64,000 nt of DNA from Auricularia sp. M13. Taxonomy: Eukaryota; Basidiomycota; Agaricomycetes; Auriculariales; Auriculariaceae. Under the pieces are notes generated by a model. It saw only the letters and a program-made list of their open reading frames with translations. It did no database searches and was not told where the DNA came from. The translations under genes were made by a program, and so were the position numbers. The DNA lies in assembly GCA_037042915.1 (NCBI GenBank), contig CM073201.1, positions 2,976,001-3,040,000 on the forward strand. The letters are read 5' to 3'. Shown here piece by piece: positions 2,511-59,103 of this stretch. The stretch's first letter is position 1, and the number at the start of each line of letters is the position of its first letter.

Positions 2511-3212
2511 CGCTGCATTAGCATTAGTCTGTCCTTCAGACGGAATCGCACTTGCACACCCAGGACCAACTGGATCGATTATGCTGTCTCGCACTCAGTG
2601 CAAACTGCGAGTACGTAGCTTTGTCCACGAGTCGGGCTTATCCTTGGCCCATTCCGTTTGAACCACGGCGTGTGCGGGCAGTCACTGCCCATACCTAGTC
2701 GTTACTAGAGTATGATACGCACATTATTCGCCTGGAGCAGCAGTATATACTATAGTAAGAGGTTGAGATCGTAGCAGAAGTTCATAAACGAGCGCCATTT
2801 GCAGAGCCGGGGTGATGTACACAAAGCCTTACGGCCGGCGAGAAGCTTTGTGGCTTGCGTGGCCTTCGTTTGGCGCGACTATCTGTTGCCTCTCATGAAG
2901 TTCACAGTACATGGGCATTACATAACGGGATTAGGGAGTTAATCAATGGGTATGCTACCTTGATGGGATATTGCTAGGTGTGTCCCCGCACCTCGTCAAA
3001 CGACGTGCGGGTCGGAATGCGACACGTAGGTACAGTAGTGCTCGCGGGAGGAAATTGGGCATGGCCGCGTCACCACTGTCATCCAGATGACCAAATGCCA
3101 ATGAACCACGTGCGCGTACCGCGGCGCCGGCGCCGACTCGATTAGATTCTGTATATAAGCCGGATCAAGAGCCTCGCGATCGTGAACCATATCCAGACAG
3201 AGGATCCGCGAA
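2511..3212. other. Intergenic; contains beta-lactamase-like gene 1 promoter
   Basis: No gene recognised. A TATA box (TATATAAG, near 3151) lies about 60 bases before the ATG at 3213 and is a plausible core promoter. Confidence 0.5.
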
Positions 3213-4382
3213 ATGGCAAAGGTGCATGGAACGTGCGACCCACGCTTCGCCGAAGTCGAACGGATTTTCCAGTCCTTCTTGGACTCTGGCGACGAACTCG
3301 GCGCCTCGTTCGCAGTCACCATCGAAGGGGTCAACGTAATCGACCTTTGGGGCGGCTATGCCGACGCCGCCAAGACGCGCGCTTGGGAGCGCGACACTAT
3401 CACAACCGTGTGGTCGACATCGAAGACTATCACGGCGCTGGCGGCCCTCATCTGCGTCGAGCGCGGCATGCTGAACGTGGACGAGCCCGTTGCCACCTAC
3501 TGGCCCGAGTTTGGCGCCGCGGGCAAGCAGGACATCCTCGTGCGCCACGTGCTGTCGCACACGTCGGGCGTCTCAGGCTGGGACAAGGAGCTCTCGTTTG
3601 AGGAAACCGCCGACCTACCGTACGCGACCGCGCTGCTCGCCGCGCAGGCCGCCTGGTCCACGCCCCCTGGCGCCCACATCTGCTACCAGTCTTTCAATCA
3701 CGGCCACCTCGTCGGCGAGCTCGTGAGACGCGTCACGGGAAAGCCACTCCGCCGCTTCGTCGCCGAGGAGATTACGGGGCCTCTTGGGACGGCCGACTTC
3801 CAGCTCGGCGCAGAGGAAAAAGACTGGCACCGCGTCGCTGAGATCATCCCTCCGCCCCCTTTCCCCTCCGGTAACCCCTTTGCGCACCTACCGCCAGACA
3901 GCATCACCGTCAAGACGTTCCGCAGCCCGTCGCCTGACGCGTCACGGGCCAACTTGGAGGCGTGGCGGCGCGCGGACATCGGCGCTGCCAACGGCCACGC
4001 CAACGCGCGCGGTGTCGCACGCGTGCTCTCAGTCGTGGCGTTGAACGGAGCGCCGGTCGACGGTGTGAAGCTTCTGTCTGAGAAGACGATTGCGCGCATC
4101 TTCGAGGAGCAGGGCCGCGGCCGCGACCTCGTGTCGGGTGCGAACATGCGCACCGGAATCGGCTTTGGGTTGACCGGCAAGGAGACAATCGCAGACTGGT
4201 TGCCTGAAGACGAGCGCATCTGCTACTGGGGAGGTTGGGGCGGCAGCGTGGGGATCATGGACTTGCGCAGGCATATGTCGATTGCCTATGTCATGAACAA
4301 GATGGACAACGCCTTGTTTGGGAACGAGCCCGCGAAGGCGCTCGTCTCCGCCGTGTATAAGGCGTTGGGAATGGAGATTTAG
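3213..4382 (+). CDS. Beta-lactamase-fold serine hydrolase/esterase, tandem copy 1
   Basis: Intronless, 389 residues, starting at MAKVHGTCDPRF. It belongs to the class C beta-lactamase-related family (PF00144), whose fungal members are esterases or transesterases more often than drug-degrading enzymes. The SxxK nucleophile motif is S68-T-S-K71 (VWSTSKTITALAALICVERG), the catalytic tyrosine is probably Y158 in ICYQSFNHGH, and the third-motif equivalent is the glycine-rich YWGGWGGSVG near the C-terminus. There is no signal peptide, so it is probably cytosolic. Gene 5060-6211 is a close direct duplicate in the same orientation; the main length difference is the proline-rich loop after VAEI. The substrate cannot be assigned from sequence. 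Confidence 0.9.
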   Translation: MAKVHGTCDPRFAEVERIFQSFLDSGDELGASFAVTIEGVNVIDLWGGYADAAKTRAWERDTITTVWSTSKTITALAALICVERGMLNVDEPVATYWPEFGAAGKQDILVRHVLSHTSGVSGWDKELSFEETADLPYATALLAAQAAWSTPPGAHICYQSFNHGHLVGELVRRVTGKPLRRFVAEEITGPLGTADFQLGAEEKDWHRVAEIIPPPPFPSGNPFAHLPPDSITVKTFRSPSPDASRANLEAWRRADIGAANGHANARGVARVLSVVALNGAPVDGVKLLSEKTIARIFEEQGRGRDLVSGANMRTGIGFGLTGKETIADWLPEDERICYWGGWGGSVGIMDLRRHMSIAYVMNKMDNALFGNEPAKALVSAVYKALGMEI

Positions 4383-5059
4383 GGTATGTAAGAGTAGATT
4401 ATGAACGGGAGTGGTGCTCTGCCACGCATCGTGGCCATCGAGCGGTATGCTCAGGAACGAGAAGAGAACGCATTGTACAGATTCAGTCAATGCGATAGCG
4501 ACGAGCCCAGGACGAGCCGTGATTCCAAGCCCTGATTGCACGCTTACCATTAGCACCCGTCGTTTAATGAACGTGAGTGGCATTTGGGAGCCTTTCTCGA
4601 TGAACTCATTCGACTTCTTGACACTACCTTTAATGCTCCTGAGGCTCACCTGCAACATCCACGAGACGAACTGAGGGCGCCATAAACGGCTTGCACTGGA
4701 TACTAGTGCACTATGTGATCAGTGATCATTGGCTGTTTGACCCCGAAAAAGAAAAGATCAATCCGTCCCCCGCAAAAACAGATTTTGCGTCCCCCTAGTC
4801 TCCTTTGCAGACTTTACGGAGGAAGACAATCGTTCCAAACTGGCACGACGTATACGGAGTTGCTTTACTCCGGCCGGGAGGCTGAGACAAGCCTGAGATG
4901 TCCATGTGCATCCTCGACTGACTAAATAAGCTGATGTAAGTCTCAAACGCAGCGCCAGATCATGACGGTCCGTGGAACAAGCTGGAATGACTTGCATCCC
5001 CGTTATAAGTATGAGCACGATAGTCCACCATCTACCACATACAGTACACAGCGCCTCGG
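4383..5059. other. Intergenic between the hydrolase duplicates; DPM3-like relic
   Basis: No intact gene. Bases about 4430-4550 resemble the antisense of the DPM3 5' end (shared GAACGAGAAGA and a TGATTGCACG block in the same order), suggesting a decayed fragment copy. A TATA-like TTATAAG near 5004 precedes the ATG at 5060. Confidence 0.4.
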
Positions 5060-6211
5060 ATGGCAAAAGTACAAGGCACCTGCGACCCGCGTTTCGCCGA
5101 AGTCGAGCGGATCTTCCAGTCTTTCTTGGACTCTGGCGAGGAACTCGGCGCCTCGTTTGTAGTCAACATCGATGGGGTCAATGTGATCGACCTCTGGGGC
5201 GGCTATGCCGACGCCGCCAAGACGCGCGCCTGGGAACGCGACACCATCACGACTGTATGGTCGACATCGAAGACCATTACCGCACTGGCCGCCCTCATCT
5301 GCGTCGAGCGCGGCCTGCTACATCTGGACGAACCCGTCGCCACTTACTGGCCCGAGTTCGGCGCGGCGGGCAAGAAGGAAATCCTCGTGCGCCACGTGCT
5401 GTCGCACACGTCGGGCGTCTCAGGATGGGACAAATTGGTCTCGTTTGAGGAGATCGCCAACCTGCCGTACTCGACCGCGCTCCTCGCTGCACAGCCCGCG
5501 TGGTCTACGCCCCCTGGCGCCCACATCTGCTACCAGGCGGTGAATCACGGCCACCTGGTCGGCGAGCTAGTGCGACGTGTCACTGGCAAGTCGTTGCGCC
5601 GCTTCGTGGCCGAGGAGATTACGGGGCCGCTCGGGACGGACGACTTCCAGCTAGGCGCAGAGGAAAAGGACTGGCACCGCGTCGCTGAGATCGTTCCCCC
5701 GCCAGAGCAACCCAATAGCAACCCCCCAGCGCCGGACAGCATTACCGTCAAGACGTTCAGAACCCTGCCCATCGACGCCAACTCGGAGCAATGGCGACGG
5801 GCGGACATCGGCGCCGCGAACGGCCACGCCAATGGGCGCGGTGTCGCGCGCGTGCTATCAGTCGTGGCCCTGGGCGGCGCGCCAGTCGACGGCGTGACGC
5901 TACTCTCAGAGAGGACTATTGCGCGCATTTTCGAGGAGCAGTGTCGCGGCCTTGACCTCGCCACTCGCGCGAACATGCGCATGGGAATCGGCTTTGGGTT
6001 GACCGGCAAGGAGACGACCGCTGGCTGGCTGCCTGAAGACGAGCGTATCTGCTACTGGGGCGGTTGGGGCGGCAGCGTGGGGATCATGGACGTGGGCAGG
6101 CATATGTCGATTGGGTATGTCATGAACAAGTTGGAGAACGCGCTGTTCGGGAATGAGCGCTCCAAGGCACTCGTCACGGCCGTGTACAAAGCGCTGGGCG
6201 TGGAGCCGTGA
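5060..6211 (+). CDS. Beta-lactamase-fold serine hydrolase/esterase, tandem copy 2
   Basis: Intronless, 383 residues, starting at MAKVQGTCDPRF and collinear with the upstream copy over its whole length. It keeps S68-T-S-K71, the ICYQAVNHGH tyrosine motif and the YWGGWGGSVG motif, so it should be catalytically competent. Differences cluster in the acyl-pocket loop (a shorter proline/asparagine stretch around residues 212-225) and in the C-terminal third, for example GRHMSIGYVMNKL in place of RRHMSIAYVMNKM. This pattern fits a local tandem duplication followed by divergence of the specificity loop. There is no signal peptide and no sign of decay. The substrate is unknown. Confidence 0.9.
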   Translation: MAKVQGTCDPRFAEVERIFQSFLDSGEELGASFVVNIDGVNVIDLWGGYADAAKTRAWERDTITTVWSTSKTITALAALICVERGLLHLDEPVATYWPEFGAAGKKEILVRHVLSHTSGVSGWDKLVSFEEIANLPYSTALLAAQPAWSTPPGAHICYQAVNHGHLVGELVRRVTGKSLRRFVAEEITGPLGTDDFQLGAEEKDWHRVAEIVPPPEQPNSNPPAPDSITVKTFRTLPIDANSEQWRRADIGAANGHANGRGVARVLSVVALGGAPVDGVTLLSERTIARIFEEQCRGLDLATRANMRMGIGFGLTGKETTAGWLPEDERICYWGGWGGSVGIMDVGRHMSIGYVMNKLENALFGNERSKALVTAVYKALGVEP

Positions 6212-50467: not shown

Positions 50468-52070
50468 CTAAAGCAAGATACCCTGAGGAGGAAGGCTTTC
50501 GACCGGCCTCTCCCTGTCCCAAGCAAGCCGACCGCGAAGATAGACCTTTTCAGCCACCCCGCGGACAGGAAGCCCTTCGTACGGCGACAGCTTGTTCTTG
50601 AAGTGTAGAGAACTCTTATCGACCTGATACAAACTCAGTATAGTTCATAGCGCAGAGCACTGCTGACCGTCCACTCAGCATCGAGGTCCCAGAACGCAAG
50701 ATCCGCGTCCATGCCCACAGCAATGCTGCCCTTCCGGTCTTCCAGACCCGCGATTTCGGCCGGCTTCACTGACATCCAACGGACGAGTTCCGCAAGAGCC
50801 ACCCCGCGGCGCTGACATTCGGCCCACATGACGCTGAAGCCGAGCCCGAGCGAGCTGATGCCGCCCCACGCCTTCATAAAGTCGCCGTCCGCGAGCCGCT
50901 TGAGCTCTGCGACGCACGGCGAATGGTCCGAGACTACGCAAGCGATGCGGCCGGCGCGCAGTGCTTCCCAGAGCGTGTCGGCGTTCGCTTGGCTGCGAAT
51001 GGGCGGGCAGCATTTGAAGTGGGGTTTCGAGGTGGCTAGCTCGCTGAACGCGAGAGGTGCGAGCGTGAGGTAGTGAAAGCATGTCTCCGCTGTGAGATTC
51101 TTCGTGCCTTCCAGCAGCGGGAGCGCGCTGGACGCGGAGAGGTGGACGATGTGCTTCGGGACTGTCGGGTAGGCATCGTGCAGCGAGCGGACAAGCCTGA
51201 TAGCGTCCACTTCCAGTGAATCTGGACGAGATGCCAGGAATGTAGCGTATTGCGTTGGATCTTCGGCTGCTGGTGGCTTGCTGTTATCCAATTCCGCGTG
51301 GAATAACAGTCGAGCGGACGTTTGCTGCAGTGGTGAGCTTCTCAATTCAGATAAATTCTTGCCAAATTGGGATACTTACCTTCAACTCGTCCAAAGCCTT
51401 CTTCACATCTTCTTCGTTTACACGCGGAAATTCCTGGGAGTTCTTAGTGCCAAGTAGCTGTGCAGCTTCAGGCGTACATCGACACCACTTTCACAGAGGA
51501 AGCACTTGAATCCCCTGATACCCGCCGCGACCATTTGCTTCAGCTCACTCTATCAATCAAGGTGAGAACCATCGATAATCTGACATCGATTCTGCACTCG
51601 CCTGGTTTCCGGGTATGACCCCTCCCCAAAATGCGACATCGGCAAAACATTGTTCTTTGGCCGCGTCGCGCTTCACTTGGAGACCTGAAAGGGTTGTAGT
51701 TGGTGGGATAGAGTTGAGAGGCATGTCAACGACGGTGGTGACCCCTCCGGCTATTGCTGCTCGTGTGCCGGTTGCAAATCCCTCCCATTCAGTGCGGCCT
51801 GGTTCGTTCAAATGCACGTGCGAGCTGCTAAGCATCAGACAGGATATTGGTAGACGTGTAGCAGTATTACTCGACAAGACCTGGAAGGATTGTGCGCGTG
51901 CCAGCGTCGACGAACTCGATGCCAGGACCGTACGCGCTGCGTACAGCGTGCCCGCGCACGATGCTGATGATCTTACCGCTATCGCGCGACACTTCTATAG
52001 CAGCAGGCACAGGCTCATTTTCGCTCGGCAGCAAGACGCGTTCAGACGTAAAGACGATTGTGGTGGTCAT
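50468..52070 (-). CDS. DAL1: Allantoinase
   Basis: Hydrolyses allantoin to allantoate in purine nitrogen recycling; amidohydrolase fold with two zinc ions. Six exons, about 454 residues, ATG at 52070. Metal ligands are visible: HVHLNEPGR (HxH), the carboxylated lysine in [12 protein letters not shown], the histidine in [14 protein letters not shown], and the aspartate in CVVSDHSPC. The end [20 protein letters not shown] is the conserved C-terminal metal-flap region; it lies in a last exon reached by a 45-base intron, so a model stopping near 50,635 would be truncated. One intron (51601-51550) uses a GC donor (GCGAGT) with a TAG acceptor, and no GT donor nearby preserves the frame. The rest are GT-AG. 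Confidence 0.92.
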
Positions 52071-52645: not shown

Positions 52646-53298
52646 CTACAAACGTGCGCTGTTATGCTGGCTAGATCCTTCGCGCAGGTCGACAACTTCC
52701 TGTTTTTCCGGCTCTCCTGCCATCGGCTTTGCGCGCATGTCCTGCAGAGCCTCCTCGACTATTAACAATGCAAAATCTCCGGCGCACCCGAAAGCAAGCG
52801 ACCACCCAGAGCCGCCCTGCTCGTAGCTATGCACAATCGTACTCGGTGTCTTCTCTGAGCCAGACAGGCGTAGTTCGCGCTCGACTCGGACACTGCGCTG
52901 CCGGAACGGTCGCAGGCCCTGCGCCAGCGGATACTCGGGGTCCAGCCGCGCCTTCCTGAGGTCAGGCAGGACGCCTCACAGCGCCCGTGCATGCGCTTGA
53001 TTATGGGCGAGGCGCGTGTAAGGTCGAGCTTGCTCTCGTGCGGCTCGGTGAAGCCACCGATGAGCAGGATGTTGTCGTCTCGGGGCACCATGAACACGAT
53101 CTCGGACGCGCGGTGCACCCTGTCAACGCCAATGCTGAGCGCGGACGTGACCTTGTGAAAGTCGCGCCCGTCGTTGATGACGCGCAGCAGGCCGCCGCGG
53201 ATGTGGTAGCAGCTGTCGTCGGCGAGCTCGGCGCTCTGGAGGCCGCTGGCGTTGACGATGGCGTCGGCCTGGAACTCCTGGCGGCATTTGCATGACAA
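52646..53298 (-). pseudogene. D-amino-acid-oxidase-type FAD oxidoreductase, 3' fragment, broken
   Basis: Reads from EFQADAIVNASGLQSAELAD through CYHIRGGLLRVINDGRDF, FMVPRDDNILLIGGFTEP and IIKRMHGRCEA, which is the substrate-domain half of a fungal D-amino-acid oxidase. One base is missing right after the GRCEA codons (near 52,975). Shifting frame there recovers the expected FLPDLRKARLDPEYPLAQGL, RPFRQRSVRVEREL and the C-terminal FAD motif HSYEQGGSGWSLAFGCAGD. Upstream of 53,298, possibly after a splice acceptor, I find neither the GxGxxG dinucleotide-binding start nor the first exons. So the 5' half is absent and the remainder carries a frameshift: a gene fragment. The slow decay of the rest suggests a fairly recent loss, or an assembly error at the indel. 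Confidence 0.75.
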
Positions 53299-53999
53299 TT
53301 TGTATAGCGCATACTCACAGTAATTGGGACGTTGCTGTGGACATCGACTTGATTTACAGATCCGAGAATAGGTACGCGACCCTTTCCTGGTTGAAGTTGT
53401 GCACCTTCAAATTCGAGTGCACCCTGTCGCGCGCGTAGATTACTCAGTATATCCCCAGAACCTTCGAAAGGCCTGCACTCATCTTACCGGTCCCTGGCGC
53501 AGGGTTTTATGGTGGAGGTCGCCAACAGGTTTGTCTTGAGCCGTGTCGTCCTCGCTCAGCATGAGTTTTGGAATGGAACACGCGGGCGGCAGGTATTATA
53601 TGCTCCGCAAGGCCTCCACGTTCAGCTCGGCTTCAGCGGTGCATCTCGCGTTTGGCGGTCAGACACTCGGGCGCGGAGGTGATGATCAAGACGCCAAACG
53701 CGCTGCAAATTCCGCTCAAGTTGCAAGCACATCGGAACCGTGATGTTCATAAAAACGTGACATTGCGACTCGCCAATTATCATAGGCTTGCAGCACGCAT
53801 GAGAGGCATCTCAGAGATGTCAAATATCATAGGCGTGCAGCATGCATGGGCAGCATAAAGTTCACTCAGAGATATCGATGGCTCCTGCCCCTCGTGAAGC
53901 TCCCACCTCAGTTACGGAAGATCCTGCCTCGTATCTTGGGCGAAAATATTACCGGAAGTCAAAGAATACATCCTGCTGAAAATATACCTCCGCCTTCCT
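53299..53999. other. Region where the 5' half of the oxidase should be; nothing recognisable
   Basis: No FAD-binding motif on the minus strand and no other gene. TATCATAGGC(T/G)TGCAGCA occurs twice near 53,780 and 53,827. Confidence 0.4.
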
Positions 54000-56288
54000 T
54001 CAGCGCCTGTGGAATACTAGGGGGATCCTCTTTGGCGCCATAGTGAGCGACATCGTCTGCGCCAAGACGTTCTCTCTCGTCGGCTCCATGCCGAGGTCAT
54101 CGGGCAGCGCGACGCGGTACCGTGCAATGAGAACCGCGAGAATTGCCACAGCTTCGCTCTCGAAGAACCTGCGGCATCCTTAGTGAGCGAACGGGCGAGG
54201 AGCAGAGTGGCAAAAACACACTTGCGACCGAGGCAGGAGCGCACGCCCCCCGAGAATGGGTAGAACGCCTCGCGCGGCCAGTCGGGCTTGAGGAAGCGGT
54301 CGGGGTCGAACTTATCCGGGTCCGCCCAGTACTTCGCTGCTCTATGTGAGACATATGAGGGGCGCAATGAAAAGGAAGGCGCGAACGGTTGTGATGGATG
54401 CCGAGGAAAGTGATGGCGACGAGTGTGCCCTTGGGCACAACGATGGAGCTACCATCGGACGTGGGAAGCGTCGTATCTTCTGCGCTCGTCTTGCCCACAC
54501 CATTGGCGGGAGGGTAGAACCGTAGCGTTTCGTACAGCACGCTATAGCACAATGAGCCGGGTGACAAGGAGACGGAAGAGCGGAGACGGACGCGAGGCAA
54601 CGCTTGAACTTGCCCATCTCGTCGTATGTCGGTATGCGCTTGTCCGGTGTGATTCTCATTATTTCATCGTACAACTTATCCTGCTCTTCGGGGTAGAGCG
54701 CGAGGAGGCCGAGAGCGAACGCCAGGGTATGTGCTGTGGTCTGAAGTCGATTAGAACAATCTCATTTGCCCAGACTCACTCACCTCGTGTCCTGCAATGA
54801 GAAAAATGAATATATTCCCTGCACAGCATTTAACAAGACGCGATTGCGAGACCAATGTAACATACCAATTAGCTCCGCGTCGGTGAGCCTTTCGCGAGGG
54901 TCGTCCTTCTCTGTGGCATCCAACAGGCCGCTGAACAAATCGTACCGCTCCTCCTTCTGCTCAGCCGCCCTGCGTGCGGTGACCATCTCCGACATATATT
55001 GCTTCACACATAGCATTAGGGCCACATGTCTCCGGAAATGGGGAGACAATCGCACTTGCAGTTCTTTGAACGAGCGACCCACGAGACGCCACTGCTTGCG
55101 GAGCGGAAGAGCCCATTCGGGGACGAGTAGCTTGACGCGGAGATTACCTGCGACCGTGTGGAGGGCGTCTTTGAAGGTCATTGTATGCCCTGAGGTGAAG
55201 CTCATCAGCCTACGCAAATCATTCACGAATACAGCCTGCTTGCCCGTCGGAATGTACGCTTCGTCGTTCCAGCTCATCGGACGGCCGAACCCTGCCACAC
55301 GAGGCGTCTTAGTTTTTCAATTTGTGTCAGGAACGAATGCTCATACCGGAAATGCTGATGATCGCTAGGGCGAGCTGCTCGTATGAGCATCCACCAAAAG
55401 TCATGGAAAAAAACGGCGCAACGCACCGGCAGCGTGATATCGAGCGCATGGTCGATGCGCACAGTATCCTTTCCCTGCCACTCTGGGGTCTCAAACATCT
55501 CAAGCGTGATCTTAACCGCCTCATCCCACACGAGCTTGTTGTTTTTCTAGCCAAATATGTTTCCAAGTGGTCTCGGGGCGCTGTGAATGAAATGCCATAC
55601 CTCACTGTATCCGCCAGTGAGCGATAGGCCTGGGGAAGGACGAGAAGGCGCACCTAAATGCCGGTGCTGACGGTTTGCGATGCCTACAGGACATAAGAGG
55701 TCAGCTTGAAGATTGCCAAGGAGCACACACTTCTTCCATACAGCGCCGTCGCTGCCGACGACGTTGTCTCCGAAGTGGTTGATTAGCTGGTAGAAGTGCG
55801 CTGGCTTGGGGAAGCGCGGCGACGAGGAGAAGATTTCCTTGGGCCTTCGAGTAAGTTACCTTCGCTACAAGTTGTCGGGGCACACCTTCGCTGTGACTGC
55901 GTCCGCGATGTTGTAGCTGACTTCGGTCGGGAAGAGCGAAGCCTAGCTAGCGGCTTCAGCAATTTGAGAGGAGCGTGCGATCGGGGTAAGCGTACCATGG
56001 TGAATATGTCGCTGCCGTACTCCTCGAAAGCTATTTCATGAGATAAGATTAGATTCAGTTAAGCAGCGCCATAGAAATCGCTGAGCGGTACGAACTTTTG
56101 TGGCCGTCCTTCATCTGCCACATGTTTCCAGCAAACACCCCAGGGATCTTGGGCAAAGGCAGCGGAATAACCGGCGTAATGAGATGCCGCCATCCAGGGT
56201 AGTTGCGTACGCCAGCGAGTAAAGCTCGCAACTTGAGGAGGCGCTGTACGACGAGCGCGCCCAGCAACGCGACAATGTAGAGCCACAT
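54000..56288 (-). CDS. Cytochrome P450, intact copy
   Basis: Fifteen exons, fourteen introns, from the ATG at 56288 to the TGA at 54000. N-terminal membrane anchor MWLYIVALLGALVVQRLLKL. I-helix oxygen-binding motif FLIAGHETTAHTLAFALG, K-helix ExxR in VLYETLRFYPP, and the haem loop FSGGVRSCLGRKFFESEAV with the cysteine ligand. All marks of an active ER monooxygenase are present, with PKRIPLVFHRR at the end. Exon 6 is a 4-base microexon (TGAG, 55604-55601) that completes PAFSEKNNKLVW; without it the frame breaks. The HHN-PKYW junction uses an acceptor slightly downstream of the first CAG/TAG. It is divergent with its decayed duplicate at 56765, and most introns match. Family or substrate not assigned; likely secondary metabolism or detoxification. 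Confidence 0.88.
55601..55604 (-). other. 4-base microexon (TGAG) of the intact P450
   Basis: Flanked by a perfect CAG acceptor (GATACAG) and a GTATGG donor. With it, AG + T GAG + AAA reads S-E-K. Without it the exons on either side are out of phase by one base. Confidence 0.78.
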
Positions 56289-56764
56289 TGAGGGGGGATC
56301 AAGGTCAGCGGGATCTGTGCCCACTGCGATGACCTTTTGAATGTGTCTACGCCGAGAAGCCCAGAAACGGCTCAGCGGGGCTCAGCGCTCAGCATTTGGA
56401 GCTGCGTCGGGAGAAATTCTGAGAACCCTATTGGCTGCGCGGCCGCCGTCTGCGAGCGGACATCACCATAGCGGTGCACGCGGATCTAATCCCACGTGAC
56501 TCCCTCGACAGTCCCTTGCACTAATGATTTGCATAGCAGAAACAATGCAATGGCAATATGTAAAAGCCCAGCCGTTGACTCATTACCATTCTATGCTGTC
56601 CTAGAATTCTGTCCAGCCACTTTGGAAGTGGATTCCATCACGATCATCATCATGAGCCATTCCTCGGCTCCTTGACGACGCCGGCGCAGCGACGGCGCAG
56701 CGACGACGCCTTCAAAAGCTCAGTCGATCCATTCTGAAAATTGCGGTACCCACTTGGTCTTCAT
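56289..56764. promoter_or_regulatory. Shared divergent promoter region of the P450 pair
   Basis: 476 bases between the two P450 start codons. It contains a reverse CCAAT box (ATTGGCT near 56,430) and a short GGCGCAGCGAC repeat near 56,680. No TATA box is obvious for either gene. Confidence 0.4.
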
Positions 56765-59103
56765 ATGTGGTTCTACATCGTCGCGTTACTGGGCGCGCTT
56801 GTTGTACAGCGCCTCCTCAAGCTTCGAGCCTTACTCGCTGGCGTACGCAACTACCCCGGATGGCGGCACCTCATTACGCCCACAATTCCGCTGCCGATAC
56901 CCAAGATTCCTGGGGTGTTTGCGGGGTACATGTGGCAGATGAATGAGGGCCACAAAAGTTCGTACCACGTGCGGCTGTCAAAATCTCAATTTATTGCTTG
57001 CAATAGTTTTCCAGCAGTTTGGCAGCGACATCTTCACCATGGTATGCTTGTTCATCGCATGGTTTACTTGAATAACTGACGCATCCCTGTTAGGCTTCGT
57101 TCTTCCCGACTGAAGTGGGCTACAACATCGCGGACGCTGTCACGGCCAAGGTGCGCAACCCACTGTGTTTTCTGACCGTAGCCATCTCAACTAACAGAAG
57201 ACCTCAAGGAAATCTTCTCCTCGTCGCCGCGGTTTCCGAAGCCGTTGCACTTTTATAAGCTAATCAATCATTTTGGAGATAATGTCGTCGGCAGCGACGG
57301 CGCCGTCTAGAAAAAGTGAGTGCTGCATCAGCGATGTCCCAAGCTTATCTCATTTTGCAGACATCGTAAACCCTCGGCACCGGCTTTCAGGTACGTCTTC
57401 TCCGTTTTTCGCGCCATTGCTCACCAGCGGATCCAGTGAGGTACGACACTCTCGTTCGAGCGTCTCAGAACCTTTCGTGAATCGAATCGGCTAGAAAAAT
57501 AACAAACTCGTCTGGGACGAGGCAGTCAAGATCACCTTGGGGATGTTTGAGACGTCAGGATGGCAGGGAAAGGATACTGTGCGCATCGACCACGCAGTAG
57601 ACATCACGTTACCGGTGCGTTGCGCCCCTTTCGATGAATTCTGGCGAATTCTCATGACGCGCAGCTCGCCTTGGCTATCATCAGCATTTCCGGTAGGATT
57701 TGTCACCAGTCATACAGAACTCTAGGGGATCTGACGCGTCGGATGGCAGGGTTCGGCCGTCCGATGAACTGGAATGATGCAGGAATTGTTCCTACAGGTC
57801 GGAGATCTGGTTCGTGGATGACATGCGCAGACTGAGGTGAATATTTTCAGGACACACGATGACGTTCAAAGACGCCCTGCACACGGTCGCAGGCAACCTC
57901 CGCGTCAAGCTACTGGTGCCCGAGTGGGCTCTTCCGCTGCGCAAGCACTGGCGCTTCGTGGATCACTCATTCAAAGAGCTCCAGGTGCGAGCTCGTTTTC
58001 CAATCTCCTGCTGAATCAGACGTTGACGCTACCCGGGAAGCAATACATGTCGGAAATGGTCGTTGCGCGCAGAATGGCTGAGGAGAAGGAAGAGCGATAC
58101 GACCTGTTCAGCGGTCTATTGGATGCAACTGAGAAGGAAGACCCGCGCGAGAAGCTGACTGACGCCGAGCTGATTGGTATGCCCCGCGTCGTCTAAGGGC
58201 CGCATCTCATAATGAATGCTGTGCAGGTAACATATTCATTTTCCTCATCGCCGGACACGAGGTACGATCCTGCGAGTGTTCGGAAACTAGCGCGACTCTC
58301 ATTGGTTGCAGACTACAGCACACGCGCTGGCTTTTGCCCTTGGTCTCCTCGCGCTCTATCCCGACGAGCAAGATAAGCTATATGAGGAAGTGATGTCAAT
58401 CACACCCGACAAGCGCATACCGGCGTACGACGAAATGGGCAAGTTCAAGCGTTGCCTGGCGTTCGTCTTTGCTCCGGCCCGCTGTCCCAAAGCTCACTCT
58501 CTTACTCAGTGTGTTATACGAGACCCTACGGTTTTACCCTCCAGCGATCGGCGCGGGCAAGATTAGCGCAGAGGACACGGCGCTCCCCACGTCCGACGGC
58601 GGCTCGATCGTCGTGCCCAAGGACACGTTCCTCGGCATTACCTTCATCGGTATACATCGTAACCGTGCGCACCCTCCTTCTCATTGCACCCCATGTTTCT
58701 CACGCAGTGCAGCGAAATACTGGGATGACGCAGAGAAGTTCGATCCTGGCCGATTCCTCAAGCCCGATTGGCCGCGCGAGGCTTTCTATCCGTTCTCCGG
58801 CGGTGTGCGCTCCTGCCTAGGTCGCAAGTAAGTTAGCCCCGTTTCGCAGCTTGCCTTGCGCTGAAATGAAAACTCCAGGTTCTTCGAGAGCGAGGCTGTG
58901 GCAATCCTCGCGGTCCTCGTCGCTCGTTACCGGGTAACGCTGCCTGACGACCTCGGCATGGAGCCCACCAGGGAGAATTTTCTTGCGCCGACTATGTCTC
59001 TCACCATGGCGTGAGCATGCGTGAATTCTGAATCAAGATGAGGACGGCTGACTTGCTTTGCGACAGTCCGAAGCGGATCCCCCTTGTGTTTCACAGACGG
59101 TGA
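56765..59103 (+). pseudogene. Cytochrome P450, decayed head-to-head duplicate
   Basis: Collinear with the intact P450 from the anchor MWFYIVALLGALVVQRLLKL to VFHRR, including the I-helix AGHETTAHALAF, the ETLRFYPP motif and FSGGVRSCLGRKFF. Two lesions: at 57308-57310 the tryptophan of VWKK is a TAG stop, and near 57,800-57,812 one base is lost, followed in frame by TGA (57838-57840). A 41-base GT-AG segment (57810-57850) would bypass the second lesion in frame, with loss of about 14 residues, but not the first. The 4-base microexon is conserved (57437-57440). It has an extra intron before the last exon (MA|PKRIPL) that the partner lacks. Splice sites are largely intact, so the loss looks recent; transcription may persist. 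Confidence 0.8.
57437..57440 (+). other. 4-base microexon (TGAG) in the decayed P450
   Basis: Same four bases, phase and flanks (ATCCAG acceptor, GTACGA donor) as the intact copy, although the surrounding introns have diverged freely. Confidence 0.75.

Follow-up and report, generated by a model that had tools for sequence, protein, structure and literature searches.

A putative four-nucleotide coding exon in a duplicated Auricularia P450 gene and its probable origin from an intron gained beside an older one

The window considered here is a stretch of 64,000 nucleotides (nt) from Auricularia sp. M13 (contig CM073201.1, positions 2,976,001 to 3,040,000). Between its positions 54000 and 59103 lie two copies of a cytochrome P450 gene, arranged head-to-head with 476 bases between them (56289-56764), and each contains a putative exon of only four bases, TGAG (Table 1). 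The product of copy A matches the P450 family PF00067 over residues 49-507 with 239.3 bits against a curated cut-off of 22.8. Copy B aligns to it exon for exon and is a pseudogene in which the codon for Trp 129 reads TAG. The introns of the two models are short throughout, with 43-65 nt in A and 45-58 nt in B. The original prediction had placed a TGAG microexon in both duplicates and regarded the second copy as decayed; the exon is found at both ends of the interval it gave, and the decay is evident from the stop codon and the deletion in copy B.

Table 1. Features of the P450 pair, in window coordinates.
Feature	Position	Strand	Description
Copy A, P450 gene	54000..56288	-	15 exons, 522 residues, open throughout
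Copy B, P450 pseudogene	56765..59103	+	16 exons; exon 4 interrupted by TAG, exon 9 lacking 1 nt
Microexon (exon 6) of A	55601..55604	-	TGAG, 4 nt; completes Ser (AG+T), encodes Glu
Microexon (exon 6) of B	57437..57440	+	TGAG, 4 nt
Intron 5 of A	55605..55653	-	49 nt, phase 2, gtgcgc..atacag; probably the gained intron
Intron 6 of A	55547..55600	-	54 nt, phase 0, gtatgg..ggctag; old intron
Intron 5 of B	57391..57436	+	46 nt, phase 2
Intron 6 of B	57441..57494	+	54 nt, phase 0
Exon 5 of A	55654..55683	-	30 nt, HRKPSAPAF; its upstream border is the second intron private to A/B
Intron 4 of A	55684..55730	-	47 nt, phase 2, position 131.2; exact position in 0/10 paralogue loci
Intron 4 of B	57316..57360	+	counterpart of A's intron at 131.2

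The exon with its borders reads ..cag/TGAG/gta.. in both copies. In copy A, exon 5 closes with CCG GCA TTT AG and exon 7 opens with AAA AAC AAC; the first base of the microexon completes the serine codon, GAG adds glutamate, and the predicted mRNA reads GGCATTTAG-TGAG-AAAAACAAC. With four nt, where microexons may have up to 30, and a GT-AG intron on each side (49 and 54 nt in A, 46 and 54 nt in B), the element qualifies as a microexon. From exon 5 to LVWDEA, every chain with no more than two GT-AG introns, each 20 nt or longer, was enumerated. Six chains of copy A are open and in frame, TGAG is the middle exon in every one of them, and one yields PAFSEKNNKLVW. Single-intron readings were rejected for this copy, where none is open. 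Copy B has 42 open chains, and the one that uses TGAG gives the peptide of copy A. When sequential or nested removal of introns of at least 30 nt was enumerated as well, no new kind of product appeared in copy A, and copy B gained some products re-spliced across a junction. Retention of intron 5 leads to a TGA in both copies. Since either this retention or skipping of the exon breaks the frame, inclusion would be constitutive. With the pair's remaining introns as the reference, splice-site scores are good for the intron 5 donors (A, 7.9; B, 10.5) and for the donor of intron 6 in B (8.5), and ordinary for the acceptors of intron 5 (3.4 and 3.6).

A nested arrangement known as a stwintron would make the same four bases intronic. 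In its [D1,2] form, excision of the inner 49-nt intron would bring TGAGG next to the final G of TTTAG and regenerate an outer donor, GTGAGG. This donor does arise on joining in both copies, and nested introns of this type are described in fungi (PMC5639578, PMC12403724). The product of nested removal is, however, out of frame in A as well as in B and loses Ser-Glu, and the regenerated donors score 0.7 and 0.9 versus 4.0 and 8.5 for those of the microexon model. A stwintron was rejected on the broken frame and the low donor score, and we consider it extremely improbable here; a switch between inclusion of TGAG and use of GTGAGG is disfavoured on the same two counts.

Relatives were taken from the same genome, a 52 Mb assembly of 14 contigs, and are therefore paralogues rather than orthologues. 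Eleven regions were found, ten of them with the microexon site; two further paralogue queries of the genome gave no additional family member with the site. The eleventh, L062 (G000:C9:3108300-3112500), has nothing matching about residues 95-197 of copy A, the microexon site included; it is a shortened relative on the same contig, about 75 kb from the P450 pair. At six of the ten loci (C1, C9_3.13, C8, C5_2.73, C5_3.23 and C6) an intron of 48-58 nt lies directly after GAG, which amounts to five distinct loci plus C5_3.23, a 99.2% copy of C5_2.73. All six carry a contiguous TTY-XXX-GAG before this intron, as in C8, which reads TTC AGC GAG/gtgcgc. No intron follows the site at the remaining four (C4, C2, C5_2.82 and C5_3.31, the latter a 96.3% copy of C5_2.82). 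Thus, the codons that are split in A and B are contiguous in the relatives, where the site residues are Ser, Gly or Asn followed by Glu, or Gly-Asp. The upstream intron, at the Phe/Ser border (position 141.2), occurs at none of the ten loci. This occupancy, 6/10 versus 0/10, indicates that position 143.0 is old and that position 141.2 is private to A/B among the genes compared.

A second intron private to A/B sits at position 131.2, with 30 nt of exon between it and intron 5. That two private introns lie so close together is unexplained. Intron sliding is possible at 131.2, because the intron of C4 and C2 sits two bases off, at 131.0. We also observe that the P450 loci on contig C5, L063/L064 and L065/L066, recur about 0.5 Mb apart with 96.3% and 99.2% identity, which reflects either a segmental duplication or two haplotypes in the assembly.

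The relatives can also be used as protein queries for the splice pattern of the pair. Nine paralogue genes were predicted with a custom spliced aligner and copy A as query, leaving out the near-copies L064 and L066, and eight of the nine proteins (without the truncated L062) were aligned to both copies under two intron penalties. The four-nt exon was placed in 32 of 32 runs, and masking its acceptor lowered the score by 2.5 to 37.4 units. The queries are not wholly independent, since their models were first built with A; Ser-Glu or its counterpart stands uninterrupted in the paralogues' own DNA. In a further test the 104-107 nt that hold the exon were shuffled internally 200 times with dinucleotides kept, for three paralogue queries and both copies. 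None of the 200 shuffles reached the observed score in any of the six tests, the nearest being 268.5 versus a true 268.7 (copy B, query C1). Chance exons of up to 12 nt did appear, in 41-45 (A) and 7-16 (B) of each 200 shuffles, with lower scores.

Comparison of the two copies informs us on how long the frame was translated. Over exons 1-8 (190 codons, one stop codon dropped) the synonymous divergence (dS) is 0.69 and the ratio of nonsynonymous to synonymous divergence (dN/dS) 0.077; over exons 7, 8 and 10-14 (242 whole codons, with exon 9 for its deletion, exon 15 for its different end, and split codons left aside), dS is 1.01 and dN/dS 0.067. From these low ratios it follows that translation beyond the microexon continued in this frame for a long time and that B died late. 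The copies share 83.0% of their bases over exons 1-14 (1159/1396) and 72.6% over the 14 introns pooled (486/669), where the same aligner gives 67.5% for non-homologous pairs. With 80%, intron 5 ranks third in conservation among the 14, and intron 6 stands at 72.5%.

These values allow a more differentiated view of the original prediction. Its proposals that TGAG yields the family-like motif, and that the exon predates the split of A and B and was kept under constraint, agree with the reading frame and with both dN/dS values. Its argument that TGAG survived although the flanking introns had diverged, and that this points to selection, does not hold: the introns have not diverged unusually, and at 83% identity any four bases have a roughly even chance of being the same in both copies (0.83^4). 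With exons at this identity and intron 5 so well conserved, the unchanged TGAG alone is weak evidence, and the evidence for selection is the frame together with dN/dS.

The divergence data also bear on whether the exon is used at all. Copy A might be unexpressed, or both copies might be relics spliced differently or not at all, so that the microexon would be a chance reading. Such a view can draw on the state of copy B, on the tiny exons that arise in the shuffles of A, and on a microexon that is predicted from genomic sequence. It has to be set against a copy A that is open over 15 exons, a dN/dS of about 0.07 between the copies, a true score unmatched by shuffles, and a matching intron border in 6 of 10 relatives, and we judge it very unlikely.

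Taken together, we favour with a probability of about 85% that TGAG is a constitutive four-nt coding exon of this P450 gene, which arose when an intron was gained four nt before an old one. The ancestral gene would have had uninterrupted codons for PAF-S-E, followed by the old phase-0 intron after GAG, as in relatives today. In the lineage of A and B, a new intron of about 47 nt between AG and TGAG would then have severed the last four exon bases. The head-to-head duplication would have come next, with the arrangement kept in both copies and B decaying afterwards. That the microexon is an exon tail cut off by a gained intron is most likely because 6/10 relatives share the intron after GAG and 0/10 the upstream one. 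Newly gained introns have been documented in basidiomycete genes (PMC3584928).

A comparable outcome, a tiny exon in a conserved P450 motif, could result from frame repair, the scenario of Nelson and Syed, in which bases at the end of an exon are lost and a cryptic exon within a long intron is adopted. The 104-107 nt stretch can be read as one long intron with a cryptic exon inside. The relatives' intron after GAG, however, measures 48-58 nt, comparable to intron 6 by itself (54 nt), and what corresponds to TGAG in the relatives is the last four bases of an exon, not intron sequence. Intron size and exon tail therefore speak for the insertion of an intron-sized piece instead of a repaired deletion, and we regard frame repair as improbable, if less so than the chance reading.

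Whether the upstream intron was gained in A/B or lost in the relatives depends on the branching of the family. The tree of nine proteins shows a three-way fork of A, the pair C5_2.73/C6 and the group C1/C9_3.13/C8/C4/C2 (support 83/88); three of its six inner branches are starred, and its root serves for drawing only. A single gain on the A/B branch would be the simplest reading, though an unproven one since the fork is open, and gain in A/B appears preferable to loss in the relatives.

Candidate sources of the new intron were evaluated within the pair. A duplication of intron 6 into intron 5 of the same copy was rejected, as 283 of 500 shuffles in A and 144 of 500 in B score at least as high. 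The same holds for intron 6 as a source across copies (53/500 for A5-B6, 359/500 for B5-A6) and for intron 4 as the source of intron 5 (116 to 449 of 500 in four pairings). The true homologues A4/B4, A5/B5 and A6/B6 were equalled by 1, 0 and 1 of 500 shuffles. As true homologues are detected, an intron copied not long before the gene duplication ought to be recognizable, and an older one need not be.

Several observations weigh against the origin by intron gain or against the splicing on which it builds. The prediction of good acceptors and donors in both copies is right for most donors and a little too generous elsewhere: the donor of intron 6 in A (GAG/GTATGG) is weak at 4.0, and the acceptor of intron 6 is low at 2.2 in both copies, yet within the range of the pair, ranking third lowest of 14 in A and fourth lowest of 15 in B. 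Likewise, the claim that only inclusion of TGAG keeps the frame stands for A, where the exon is required for the frame and the conserved residues, and fails for B, whose other open chains include two with a single intron, PAFRYKNNKLVW and PAFRYVFSKNNKLVW (PAFRYKNN and PAFRYVFSKNN), though B is dead. The paralogue models are rough; those of C1, C2, C9_3.13 and C8 pass through a frameshift state opposite exon 9 of A, those of C1 and C8 contain stop codons there, and the aligner produced spurious four-nt exons in C4, C5_2.73 and C6 where the alignment was poor. The choice between gain and loss is based on eight distinct paralogue loci of one genome and the forked tree, and a root beside A would make a single loss in the remaining genes equally good. 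Finally, a DNA search found no source for the new intron, although the search is insensitive and missed even copy B: in a test for introner-type elements, an 83-base query had one match, itself, so a faded source would escape as well.

How could an exon of four bases be spliced? The original prediction held that exons this small need special recognition. This is not required for introns as short as those of A and B, whose lengths would fit recognition across the intron. The two introns of 46-54 nt would each be recognized as a unit, that is, by intron definition, and leave one after the other. If introns are recognized singly, no exon-defining complex is needed and no steric clash over four nt would arise. 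Either order of removal leaves complete sites, because the microexon itself supplies all of the exonic part of the second donor, GAG. Intron definition has been stated for the removal of stwintrons in filamentous ascomycetes (PMC5639578).

Other differences in intron content and the surroundings of the pair deserve mention. The last phase-2 intron, at position 511.2, is present in B (59011-59066) and in C1, C9_3.13, C8, C4 and C2; copy A lacks it and shows a clean join at about 54037/54036. Copy A has thus probably lost its 3'-most intron precisely, which would fit repair from a spliced transcript. An intron at position 365.0 is found in C1, C9_3.13, C8, C4 and C2 and in neither A nor B. Beside the pair on the minus strand, 52765-53406 gives a match below cut-off to a flavin adenine dinucleotide (FAD)-dependent oxidoreductase (DAO), and 50638-51375 an amidohydrolase match above cut-off. 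Two plus-strand open frames of the window, 3186-4379 and 5024-6208, both match the Beta-lactamase family PF00144.

Very small exons are already on record in fungal P450 genes. The closest case is the one-nt exon of the Fusarium CYP621A P450s, reported with RNA reads by Nelson and Syed (2026, PMC12940212). Like TGAG, it was recognized from frame and motif, has a length that is not a multiple of three, and corresponds to contiguous codons in a relative. As reported, it lies in the PKG motif, and is accompanied by an intronless relative, many orthologues and RNA reads, whereas TGAG has four nt, lies at the end of the PAFSE motif, has relatives that keep the old adjacent intron, and is predicted from the sequence of one genome. 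The same article cites an eight-nt exon in Phanerochaete CYP5141A1. In the survey of Phanerochaete chrysosporium P450s, the shortest exon given has 6 base pairs (PMC1184071). That species is likewise a white-rot basidiomycete whose P450 genes have many short introns and tiny exons; TGAG is shorter, at 4 nt, and its origin can be ordered within one genome, and the same site may exist there too.

Microexons of other systems differ in regulation or context. Inclusion of the Xlr2 microexon of Trichoderma virens, also a filamentous fungus, is described as glucose-dependent with two isoforms (PMC11121469), whereas skipping of TGAG breaks the frame. Human MPC1 contains a four-nt exon that is always included and not a multiple of three (PMC9929638); it equals TGAG in length, but is reported with long introns and exon definition, in contrast to introns of 46-54 nt. 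Plant microexons of 1-15 nt are merged into a larger exon in relatives without the introns (PMC8831610), and for plant APC11 intron loss has been proposed, unlike the gain beside an old intron suggested for TGAG. Stwintrons (PMC5639578, PMC6616335) similarly combine two introns at nearly one place with successive removal; TGAG would be an exon and not part of a nested intron, because the second donor lies four nt inside the exon. We found no four-nt fungal exon in the literature searched, which comprised open PMC papers with partial coverage.

With fungal P450 microexons already in print, TGAG appears to be a well-supported new case of a known phenomenon. What it adds is a proposed order of events, in which an uninterrupted exon tail first bordered on an old intron and a gain four nt upstream came second. 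As a case where the states before and after can be compared in the same genome, and with the second private intron at 131.2, it might tentatively hint that intron gain beside old introns, and not frame repair, supplies ultra-small exons to basidiomycete P450s in general, a reading that we consider less likely than not. If the microexon is real, TGAG would rank with the shortest fungal exons on record, and the steps of its origin could be ordered from relatives in which the corresponding four bases form an ordinary exon tail beside the old intron. For the one-nt Fusarium exon, it would provide an alternative to frame repair that can be put to the test, and annotated P450 genes of comparable genomes may carry frameshifts at sites of this kind.

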